60,696 bases of DNA from Salipiger bermudensis HTCC2601 (GTDB taxonomy: Bacteria; Pseudomonadota; Alphaproteobacteria; Rhodobacterales; Rhodobacteraceae), in the NCBI RefSeq assembly GCF_000153725.1, contig NZ_DS022276.1:1047223-1107918 (forward strand). Direction: 5' to 3'. Each line of letters begins with the position of its first letter. Within the stretch, counting starts at the first letter, position 1. Made by a program: the position numbers and the translations under genes. The notes under the pieces were generated by a model that was not told the origin of the DNA, ran no database searches, and saw only the letters and a list, made by a program, of their open reading frames with translations. Below are positions 21,389 to 25,020 of the stretch, in pieces.

Positions 21389-23077
21389 ATGGCACATGAC
21401 GGACAGGACATCGCCCTCGGCCAGAGCATCCTGCTCGACGATCTGACCGGCCTCACCAAGGCCGCCATCGCCCCCGCCGAGGCGGTGCTCGAGGCCGCGC
21501 GTGCTTCGCTGCGCGCCACGGTCGAGGAGGATGGCCGCGTCTCCGGCAAGCTGATCGAGGAAAACCAGTTCGCCGCCCACGGGCTCGCCTGGCTCGCCAC
21601 CTATGTCGAGAGCCTGCGCCAGATGCAGTACTGGGCCGACAAGCTGACCGGCGAAGGCGGCTTCGGCGAGGTCGAACAGCTGATCCACCAGATCGCGTTT
21701 GGCGAGTATCTCAACCAGATTGCCGGCGGCATCCAGATGAACCAGGGCGAGATGGTGCGCCTCTCGGATCTGGGCGTCAGCGCAGAGGCCGCCGCCGCGC
21801 TGCGCACCGATGCCACTGAAACGCTGATGGCGCGGGGCAACAGCCAGGCCGCCCGCTCGCGCCTCGTGGAGCTGATGCAGGAACGCTCGGCCGAGATCAC
21901 CGTCGGCAAGACCGCGCTCGACGAAGAGCTCGAGATGATCCGCGAGCAGTTCCGCCGCTACGCCGTCGACAAGGTCGAGCCCTTCGCCCACGAGTGGCAC
22001 CTGAAGGACGAGCTGATCCCGATGGAGGTCATCGAGGAGCTCGCCGAGATGGGCGTGTTCGGCCTCACCATCCCCGAGGAATACGGCGGGTTCGGCCTGT
22101 CCAAGGCCTCGATGTGCGTGGTCTCGGAAGAGCTGTCGCGCGGCTATATCGGCGTGGGCTCGCTGGGCACCCGCTCCGAGATCGCCGCCGAGCTGATCAT
22201 CGCCGGCGGCACCGAGGAGCAGAAGCAGAAATGGCTGCCGGCGCTGGCCTCCGGTGAGAAGCTGCCCACCGCCGTGTTCACCGAGCCCAACACCGGCTCG
22301 GATCTTGGCTCGCTGCGCACCCGTGCGGTCAAGGACGAGAACGGCGATTACACCGTCACCGGCAACAAGACCTGGATCACCCACGCCGCGCGCACCCACG
22401 TGATGACGCTGCTGGCCCGCACCGATCCCTCGACCGACAACTACAAGGGTCTGTCGATGTTCCTGGCCGAGAAAACCCCGGGCACCGATGCTGAGCCGTT
22501 CCCGACCGAGGGCATGACCGGCGGCGAGATCGAGGTGCTGGGCTATCGCGGCATGAAGGAATACGAACTCGGCTTCGATGGCTTCAAGGTCAAGGGCGAG
22601 AACCTGTTGGGCGGCGAGGAAGGTAAGGGCTTCAAGCAGCTCATGGAGACCTTCGAGAGCGCCCGCATCCAGACCGCGGCCCGCGCCATCGGCGTGGCGC
22701 AGGCGGCGCTCGACGTCGGTATGCGCTATGCCGAGGACCGGAAGCAGTTCGGCAAGTCGCTGATCGATTTCCCGCGGGTGTCGGGCAAGCTCGCGATGAT
22801 GGCGGTGGAGATCATGATCGCCCGCCAGCTGACCTACTTCTCGGCGCGCGAGAAGGACGAGGGCATCCGTTGCGATCTAGAAGCCGGCATGGCCAAGCTG
22901 CTCGGCGCCCGCGTGGCCTGGGCCAATGCCGACAACGCGCTGCAGATCCACGGCGGCAACGGTTTCGCGCTGGAATACACCGTGAGCCGCATCCTGTGCG
23001 ACGCCCGCATCCTCAACATCTTCGAGGGTGCAGCCGAGATTCAGGCTCAGGTGATTGCACGCAGGCTTCTTGGGTGA
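21389..23077 (+). CDS. mcd: (2S)-methylsuccinyl-CoA dehydrogenase, ethylmalonyl-CoA pathway
   Basis: A 562-aa FAD acyl-CoA dehydrogenase with an N-terminal extension of about 170 residues before the usual ACAD fold. That extension and total length match Mcd of Rhodobacter, which oxidises (2S)-methylsuccinyl-CoA to mesaconyl-CoA. Seen: FTEPNTGSDLGSL (FAD/substrate loop), the EDRKQFGK segment, IHGGNGFALEY, and IFEGAAEIQ, where Glu546 aligns with the general base of medium-chain ACADs. GGAGAAGGA precedes the ATG. The last 14 codons and stop belong to the first unit of an 88-bp tandem array; the apparent original 3' end is 352 bp downstream and codes for the same peptide. Confidence 0.88.
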   Translation: MAHDGQDIALGQSILLDDLTGLTKAAIAPAEAVLEAARASLRATVEEDGRVSGKLIEENQFAAHGLAWLATYVESLRQMQYWADKLTGEGGFGEVEQLIHQIAFGEYLNQIAGGIQMNQGEMVRLSDLGVSAEAAAALRTDATETLMARGNSQAARSRLVELMQERSAEITVGKTALDEELEMIREQFRRYAVDKVEPFAHEWHLKDELIPMEVIEELAEMGVFGLTIPEEYGGFGLSKASMCVVSEELSRGYIGVGSLGTRSEIAAELIIAGGTEEQKQKWLPALASGEKLPTAVFTEPNTGSDLGSLRTRAVKDENGDYTVTGNKTWITHAARTHVMTLLARTDPSTDNYKGLSMFLAEKTPGTDAEPFPTEGMTGGEIEVLGYRGMKEYELGFDGFKVKGENLLGGEEGKGFKQLMETFESARIQTAARAIGVAQAALDVGMRYAEDRKQFGKSLIDFPRVSGKLAMMAVEIMIARQLTYFSAREKDEGIRCDLEAGMAKLLGARVAWANADNALQIHGGNGFALEYTVSRILCDARILNIFEGAAEIQAQVIARRLLG

Positions 23078-23429
23078 CGATGTCGCAAACCCTCCGGGGG
23101 AGGGTTGGCCTCGGCTGCACGCCGAGATTCAGGCTCAGGTGATTGCACGCAGGCTTCTTGGGTGACGATGTCGCAAACCCTCCGGGGGAGGGTTTGCCTC
23201 GGCTGCACGCCGAGATCCAGGCTCAGGTGATTGCACGCAGGCTTCTTGGGTGACGATGTCGCAAACCCTCCGGGGGAGGGTTTGCCTCGGCTGCACGCCG
23301 AGATCCAGGCTCAGGTGATCGCACGCAGGCTTCTTGGGTGACGATGTCGCAAACCCTCCGGGGGAGGGTTTGCCTCGGCTGCACGCCGAGATCCAGGCCC
23401 AGGTGATTGCACGGCGCCTGCTGGGCTGA
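23033..23429 (+). repeat. Four 88-bp tandem units re-encoding the mcd C-terminus, plus displaced native 3' end
   Basis: Units begin at GCCGAGAT at 23033, 23121, 23209 and 23297, each exactly 88 bp. A 45-bp partial fifth copy (23385-23429) is taken as the original gene end. Every unit encodes AEIQAQVIARRLLG and a TGA stop, then carries a hairpin with 11-bp arms (GCAAACCCTCC / GGAGGGTTTGC, loop GGG) and a second hairpin CTCGGC/GCCGAG whose right arm is the next unit's GCCGAG codons. The fifth copy encodes the same peptide with different codons (CGG CGC CTG CTG GGC against CGC AGG CTT CTT GGG). The first unit has one T-to-G change in the hairpin arm; others differ at ATT/ATC. Confidence 0.95.
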
Positions 23430-23456
23430 GCACCTGCACTGACGCTGAAACAGGAA

Positions 23457-23486
23457 GGGCGGTGACTTCGGTCACCGCCCTTTTCC
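23457..23486 (+). terminator. Intrinsic terminator downstream of the mcd array
   Basis: A perfect 10-bp stem GGGCGGTGAC / GTCACCGCCC with a TTCG tetraloop followed by TTTTCC. It lies 28 bp after the displaced original mcd stop and so is probably the ancestral mcd terminator. It may also slow minus-strand transcription from glpK. Confidence 0.92.
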
Positions 23487-23535
23487 ATTCATTAGGACAT
23501 CTCCGGCGCGGCGGCGCCAAGGCGACGGCCCGACC

Positions 23536-25020
<1,485 letters not shown>

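Follow-up and report, generated by a model that had tools for sequence, protein, structure and literature searches.

At the 3′ end of mcd, a gene taken to encode methylsuccinyl-CoA dehydrogenase, the genome of Salipiger bermudensis HTCC2601 (hereafter G000) carries a tandem array of 88-bp units, each of which repeats the end of the gene itself. We propose, with a probability of about 0.55, that this array is the local amplification of a recurrent, protein-free "gene-end cassette" that is exchanged between mcd genes by way of gene-end homology. Three lines of comparison bear on this proposal: an RNA structure whose two strands covary across the stop codon, the presence of the same architecture in some genomes and empty sites in their relatives, and the largely synonymous divergence between the end that the gene now uses and the copy displaced behind it.

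A cassette of this kind would open with the final 14 mcd codons and their stop, continue through a short spacer and a hairpin, and close with an arm that is the complement of codons in mcd. In the RNA, the arm would pair back into the coding sequence and close a structure over the entire gene end and its stop codon, and in the DNA the 45-bp gene end would be cargo and homology at once. An incoming unit, present as linear donor DNA or as a circle, would recombine homologously with the resident mcd end, which would leave the protein intact and push the resident end downstream as a displaced copy, and the repeated ends would then allow units to multiply in tandem (G000 has four units, G039 two hairpins) or to be lost without a scar, the latter giving rise to empty sister genomes. 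Copy numbers and empty relatives suggest that amplification and loss occurred as such DNA steps; transfer of the cassette is likewise our probable reading of the comparisons, with vertical inheritance accompanied by losses as a possible alternative, and the RNA structure may have a function, e.g., as an mRNA 3′-end structure.

Four 88-bp units repeat the end of mcd

The window, i.e., the whole stretch of 60,696 nt that was analysed, contains a single array of this kind according to TRF (23029-23413; period 88, 4.4 copies, 97% matches). An earlier sequence-only reading had described four exact 88-bp units followed by a final gene end with synonymous codons, and this description was confirmed, with the units head to tail at 23033-23384 and the 45-nt gene end closing the array at 23385-23429 (Table 1). 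Every unit starts GCC GAG ATY CAG GCT CAG GTG ATY GCA CGC AGG CTT CTT GGG TGA, while the final copy terminates in GCA CGG CGC CTG CTG GGC TGA, and both unit and displaced end translate to EIQAQVIARRLLG followed by the stop. After the TGA come the spacer CGATGTC, the hairpin GCAAACCCTCC-GGG-GGAGGGTTTGC, and the arm CTCGGCTGCAC. The reading frame of mcd continues into unit 1 only, with units 2-4 and the final copy lying behind the stop, and the unit length of 88 does not divide by 3. Small differences exist among the units, which have either ATT or ATC at two codons (both synonymous), and unit 1 has one different hairpin base; because of these distinguishing bases and because the window is located on a 4.08-Mb contig, an assembly artefact is an unlikely source of the array.

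Table 1 Features of the mcd 3′ end, with positions counted from the first base of the window
Feature	Position	Strand	Remarks
mcd, taken as (2S)-methylsuccinyl-CoA dehydrogenase, 562 aa	21389..23077	+	last 14 codons and TGA inside unit 1
Base-stem 5′ strand GTGCAGCCGAG	23028..23038	+	in mcd codons; exact reverse complement of arm, covariation, MFE fold
Unit 1	23033..23120	+	gene end 23033-23077, spacer 23078-23084, hairpin 23085-23109, arm CTCGGCTGCAC 23110-23120
Unit 2	23121..23208	+	past mcd stop
Unit 3	23209..23296	+	past mcd stop; one synonymous-type difference from unit 2
Unit 4	23297..23384	+	past mcd stop; two synonymous-type differences from unit 2
Displaced mcd end, body-style codons CGG CGC CTG CTG GGC TGA, taken as native	23385..23429	+	sequence comparison
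Terminator-like hairpin GGGCGGTGAC-TTCG-GTCACCGCCC, TTTT tail	23455..23486	+	sequence comparison

We take the mcd protein to be a methylsuccinyl-CoA dehydrogenase from its Pfam acyl-CoA dehydrogenase domains and its best PDB sequence matches, namely 6es9 in first place (named acyl-CoA dehydrogenase, E 1e-253) and also 8ciw (named (2S)-methylsuccinyl-CoA dehydrogenase, E 1e-85); none of the NCBIfam models reached its cut-off on this protein. The unit codons AGG, CTT, CTT, and GGG had been called foreign to the style of the gene, and the counts bear this out, since in the 547-codon mcd body AGG or AGA is used for 0 of 31 Arg, CTT for 1 of 55 Leu, and GGG for 2 of 58 Gly. Across genomes, AGA or AGG appears at the Arg pair in 6 of 13 element-bearing ends versus 1 of 33 element-free ends (the relic loci L254 and L271, described below, being left out), and in 7 of 8 further ends that lack an intact element and were retrieved with a query holding AGG; because these samples were chosen by similarity, we do not count the contrast as evidence.

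Within its own genome, the unit was present at the mcd array only (genome search, E 0.001 or better). We also scanned 3,263 ends of open frames of at least 120 codons in six frames (206 from the window, 1,485 from 400 kb of G000, and 1,572 from 400 kb of the congener G009) for a 30-mer repeated at 25 or more of its 30 bases within 300 nt, and three ends carried such a nearby repeat, two of them belonging to the mcd array, which thus exceeds what chance would give. The third is a weak repeat at about 4110 of L222 on the minus strand (G000:C6 near 1584110), where 26 of 30 bases recur 63 nt behind the stop, and this repeated end lacks the mcd-type hairpin and arm.

Two simpler identities of the unit were considered and rejected. 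An intrinsic terminator was called neither in the unit nor elsewhere within 22900-23600 by the terminator scan, and the unit hairpin is followed by CTCGGC, with no T run. Ribosome bypass or RNA splicing across the unit was discounted, since nothing of the protein is missing when the stop is reached and since landing on the GCA that precedes the displaced copy would be out of frame. The terminator-like hairpin behind the array was not reported by the simple terminator scan, which needs 5 T in 8; its stem, with another loop, also stands behind the mcd stop of G004 and is missing from that position in G005.

A covarying structure spans the stop codon

To describe the unit as non-coding, as the sequence-only reading did, is incomplete, since its hairpin covaries and its arm can pair with codons of mcd. 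The arm is the exact reverse complement of a stretch of mcd that lies 37-47 nt upstream of the stop, and the cassette hairpins have stems of about 10-12 bp and, for the most part, a 3-nt loop. For unit 1, the predicted MFE structure includes the arm-gene pairing and reaches -50.1 kcal/mol (z -3.0; 0 of 200 shuffles equal it). If the upstream strand is omitted and the sequence between the first and second stops is folded by itself, its energy does not stand out from that of shuffles (z -0.48), and the long-range stem therefore carries the folding signal.

The hairpin and the long-range stem covary. In alignment A5 (11 sequences, 22 pairs, 500 shuffles), 92.4% of cells pair (shuffled mean 76.7), both sides change in 12 of the 22 pairs, and 37 cells carry both-side changes (shuffled mean 13.2), values that 0 of 500 shuffles reached in each case; the count of pair types was not above shuffles (108 of 500). 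Sliding the alignments lowers the paired share to 41-50%. Of the 11 base-stem pairs, 4 show changes in both partners and 6 never vary, and the two pairs adjoining the hairpin fail in 4 and 5 of the 11 sequences. Arms fit their own genes more closely than the genes of other genomes (102 of 110 bases, permuted mean 91.6, p 0.0004; with 8 distinct pairs, p 0.003; both in the first 10 genomes). As relatedness inflates the shuffle tests, we place weight on the wobble-position examples: wobble position 5 of the stem takes three pair types, the gene's codon choices GCC/GCG and GCA/GCC are mirrored in the arm, and in G061 an aberrant gene sequence, GCAGGGGAAA, is mirrored in full by the arm and matched by the displaced copy too. 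An RNA structure at the mcd end is thus supported by covariation, and we would expect it to fold in the cell, probably as a 3′-end structure.

A known RNA family was rejected as the identity of this structure, as Rfam returned no match at E 1 or better on 10 loci and, over 22500-24000, two matches that are far under their gathering scores and lie outside the array. A scan for a hairpin plus arm gave three matches (the mcd array and two at one stop-anchored G009 locus); reversed-text controls gave three as well, so the scan has little power.

The same architecture stands at mcd in nine genera

A search for the unit across Rhodobacteraceae, which the sequence-only reading had proposed, showed that it is not unique to this genome, with the same architecture at mcd in 13 genomes of 9 genera, i.e., 5 of 20 Salipiger genomes and 8 other genera, the latter from a 394-genome family sample. 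All 20 Salipiger genomes have mcd; the spacer, hairpin, arm, and second gene end come right after its stop in G000, G013, G014, G015, and G019 and are missing from the other fifteen, and the element pattern occurs in records named S. pallidus and S. pentaromativorans. G155, G039 (two hairpins), G238, G177, and G226 came to light in a DNA search of the 394 family genomes, and G191, G044, and G061 in a pattern search of 389 relatives. All 13 element genomes score at least 101 bits with R2, a covariance model of the structure that was built from 11 of them and thus has those 11 in its alignment. Applied to the 394 family genomes, R2 placed nine, G000 included, at 113.6-146.1 bits, with the next score at 74.6 bits in G330, and an intact element was found in none of the 20 lower-scoring R2 loci examined. 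What look like decayed or truncated mcd-type remains lie behind the mcd stop at L254 (G330; the locus of the 74.6-bit score) and L271 (G188).

The displaced copy restarts at the identical gene position in 13 of 13 genomes and is preceded by GCAC in 12 of them, and in the first copy of G039 the arm overlaps the displaced copy. Between genera the hairpin sequence is almost wholly different, while structure and junction stay constant, as would be expected of an old RNA. This agrees with a rival history in which the unit is an old, vertically inherited mcd 3′ RNA structure that was repeatedly lost via recombination between the two gene ends; the displaced copy would then still resemble coding sequence because of gene conversion or because cells that have deleted the unit make use of it. 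Also in keeping with vertical inheritance, gains and losses are about equally costly on the genus tree by our own reading of it, and TGACGATGTCGC is common to G155, G000, G013, and G015.

Empty relatives and synonymous codons point to a replaced gene end

The closest relatives of G000 lack the unit, and the empty site that the sequence-only reading had suggested looking for in such relatives was found in G004 and G005. In the mcd tree, three element-bearing genomes each group with empty ones, namely G000 with these two, G014 with G001 and G002, and G013 with G003 and G017, while the position of G015 and G019 is weakly supported. G000 and G004 share 0.952 identity over 1290 nt of the body and 0.833 at the gene end, and no 42-nt body window of the pair falls below that value. 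Among the 45 sites within 1203-1620 where G004 and G013 differ, G000 follows G004 at 37, G013 at 3, and neither at 5; among the 9 within 1644-1686, 5 agree with G013, 3 with G004, and 1 with neither, which is a suggestive but not clean switch of affinity from G004 toward G013 at the gene end. The final copy of the array shares 37 of 42 bases with the end of G004 and 38 of 42 with that of G005, as compared with 35 and 33 for the unit, with the caveat that 37 of 42 is itself under the body mean. Behind the final copy, the terminator stem of G000 is as in G004 and the next gene as in G005. From these end identities, the G000-G004 divergence, and the downstream sequence, we take it as most likely that the last copy is native and the unit an incomer, or else that the relatives lost the unit. 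The proposal of the sequence-only reading, that a small element inserted with a diverged mcd end and then amplified, is supported in part, by the empty relatives, the end identities, the comparison with body windows, and the codon pattern; the movement itself is something we infer from comparison among genomes.

Of the 14 codon positions compared in G000, 7 differ between the gene end and the final copy, and each of these changes is synonymous. Summed over 11 displaced copies in 10 genomes, the comparison with the gene end gives 51 synonymous and 10 nonsynonymous codon differences, counted over the 14 positions from GAG to the stop with stop-to-stop changes taken as synonymous and with G015 (3:9), the frameshifted G226 (0:10), and the truncated G019 (2:0 over 8 codons) set aside beforehand; with all copies included, the ratio is 56:29. 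Taken singly, the synonymous to nonsynonymous counts are 7:0 in G000, 5:0 in G191, 4:0 in G061, 7:1 in G177, 10:1 in the first copy of G039, and 0:1 in G014, whose two ends are identical except for one nonsynonymous base. About a quarter of single changes in the gene-end stretch would be synonymous, and orthologous Salipiger coding ends differ by 1175 synonymous and 0 nonsynonymous codons when compared pairwise over 13 codons, in pairs that are not independent. Because the changes are mostly synonymous, while a copy behind a stop should gather mostly nonsynonymous ones, the better-kept displaced copies seem to have spent most of their divergence as coding ends. The 51:10 sum hinges on leaving out the decayed copies, but G000, G191, G061, G177, and G039 suffice singly. 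Such a synonymous pattern is expected if a diverged end has recently taken the place of the resident one, and not if a duplication in place was followed by drift.

These counts bear on two of the alternatives. Plain replication slippage of the gene end and hairpin could account for the growth from one unit to four and perhaps for G014 with its nearly identical ends, which may reflect a local duplication or conversion, but the synonymous differences between unit and final copy in G000 and the closer resemblance of the nearest empty relatives to the final copy stand against it. Slippage as the origin of the G000 unit is already disfavoured, and as an account of the element it is very improbable; the same codons in all copies of a relative, which the sequence-only reading regarded as the mark of plain slippage, were nearly found in G014 and in none of the others compared. 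The vertical history outlined above fares somewhat better, though we consider it unlikely: conversion followed by divergence predicts many nonsynonymous changes in the non-coding copy, as against 51:10 with the decayed copies aside, and those decayed copies show that the displaced end is dispensable.

In G177, G191, G044, and G061, gene end and displaced copy share lineage-specific residues or bases, and any donor would therefore be a close relative, or the duplication local. Compared across genera, the unit ends do not stand out in identity from the genes, which lends no support to transfer between genera. G155 adds little here, as body identities near 0.6 in the G155-Salipiger pairs stem from an indel shift in the alignment and are meaningless, and the one sister genome compared with it has no element and an uninformative end.

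A stop-codon-anchored repeat family has related hairpins

The hairpin core GCAAACCCTCCGGGGGAGGGTTTG also follows purU-like and livH-like genes (names given from our reading of the proteins) in G013, G014, G015, and G019. The element at these sites, modelled as R1, is a three-way junction whose base stem starts at or beside the stop codon of the host gene. In 12 sequences, a set that omits 3 of 15 as offset, 8 of the 9 pairs of this stem have changes in both partners. With the best 150 candidates per genome scored, R1 was matched at least 85 times at E 0.01 or better, often in tandem, and the matches are spread over 15 of 20 Salipiger genomes; G000 holds one at G000:C6:1042639-1042716, about 4.5 kb before the window, and 7 more. 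In Rfam, 10 loci compared gave no family for this element. We retrieved 60 regions (including L091-L150) with 76 aligned matches, 52 of which have a stop codon at a fixed element position preceded by an open frame of at least 60 codons, and many of the other 24 are second or third tandem units. The ends of 15 of 25 purU-like loci were readable: those with the R1 element (L275, L276, L277, and L284) end in GGG and the stop, the element-free ones (L281, L282, L285, L286, L289, L293, L294, L296, L298, and L299) in GGC and the stop, and the one in G009, with an apparent relic, in GGG. It looks as if the R1 element supplied the last base of the purU-like gene.

The R1 element and the mcd unit have the hairpin core in common, in places identically over 24 nt, and both pair the 3′ flank of the hairpin with the host gene end. 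R1 members have their stem from the stop codon, many with a second hairpin and a GGGCGGAGCCC-type tail, and a long gene-end copy was not seen among them; the mcd stem, unlike theirs, begins 47 nt ahead of the stop, and a base stem with the stop codon, a second hairpin, and a GGGCGGAGCCC tail were not found at mcd. The mcd unit shows the R1 apex TCC-NNN-GGA, imperfectly in G015, G019, and G061. On mcd-type loci, R1 scores 15-30 bits or finds no match (at most 25.6 bits in the window and 30 in G039), and 8 of 12 further mcd-type loci have no R1 match at E 1 or better, as compared with 28-99 bits for matches of the R1 family; because of these low or nil scores, we regard mcd-type loci as hairpin relatives and not as R1 members. 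At L256 (G272), the mcd stop is followed at a short distance by a perfect hairpin, GAGAGGCTCC-AGT-GGAGCCTCTC, and no displaced gene end is present; to the eye the hairpin looks like short R1 elements, but an R1 match at E 1 or better is absent.

A hairpin that is identical in some genomes and common to a stop-anchored family, which some purU-like genes have and others lack, is what might be expected if a site-specific recombinase or transposase acting in trans moved the unit and recognised the hairpin, as for other non-autonomous palindromic elements. We judge such an enzyme improbable for the mcd unit, which is found at mcd only, a restriction that the requirement for gene-end homology explains more simply. 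Carrying exchange through gene-end homology further, the unit might be a recombinase-free selfish element that carries nothing but a functional copy of the final mcd codons, uses it as homology to enter and leave Rhodobacteraceae mcd genes unnoticed, imposes an RNA structure on the transcript through its arm and hairpin, and draws its hairpins from the stop-anchored pool, a picture that we offer tentatively and with some doubt. Among the best 10 or 12 matches to titles and abstracts of the open-licence literature, we found no description of an mcd end repeat or of a stop-anchored repeat in Rhodobacteraceae.

Comparison with known systems

Phage 21, like prophage e14, inserts in icd of Escherichia coli. 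The e14 prophage integrates inside the 3′ part of icd and provides a diverged gene end that preserves the protein, with 12 base exchanges and two conservative residue changes over 165 bp and with icdC as the displaced copy (as given in the portion of PMC11148124 that treats this site). The restoration of a gene end at a metabolic gene, which was unfamiliar to the sequence-only reading, is therefore what e14 does as well, and what differs here is its occurrence with 88 bp and no recombinase. The mcd unit is like e14 in bringing a copy of the target 3′ end and leaving the product intact. It differs from this integrase-bearing prophage in the features that we consider distinctive, namely its size of 88 bp, the lack of a protein of its own, the tandem state, and the arm that pairs back into the gene; an integrase is absent from the unit, which is too short for one, and the ORFs across the array are mechanical reading frames. 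Because restoring gene ends is a hallmark of e14-like elements, the array could in principle be the scar of a larger one that restored the mcd end and then lost its interior, but we find this hardly credible, as the small structure recurs in 13 genomes, the mcd ends examined include no larger intermediate, and the arm and hairpin covary.

Short, protein-free elements that form stem-loops, as the mcd unit also does, include RPE, ERIC, RUP, and NEMIS, which occupy many loci, whereas the mcd unit was found only at mcd. To our knowledge, they do not carry a copy of the target gene end. RPEs are described, in the part of PMC2229807 concerned with them, as small palindromic elements found also inside genes. 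MITEs are marked by terminal inverted repeats and a target-site duplication; in the mcd unit, the inverted arm is the complement of host codons, and what is duplicated is the end of the gene. The MIRU repeats of mycobacteria are tandem units at stop codons with a size similar to that of the mcd unit; we liken them to it by description only and know of no host gene-end copy in them. REP/RAYT elements combine a hairpin that has a GTAG-type foot with a RAYT transposase in the genome, and in the array sequence no GTAG lies beside the unit hairpin.

Conclusions

If our reading is true, the restoration of gene ends, known from prophages and islands, would be achievable by 88 bp without any protein, with the target's own end serving as the homology. 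Synonymous divergence of a gene end from the non-coding copy behind it would then be a signature for spotting recent gene-end replacement, and the covarying RNA structure that spans the stop codon of mcd would be directly testable.
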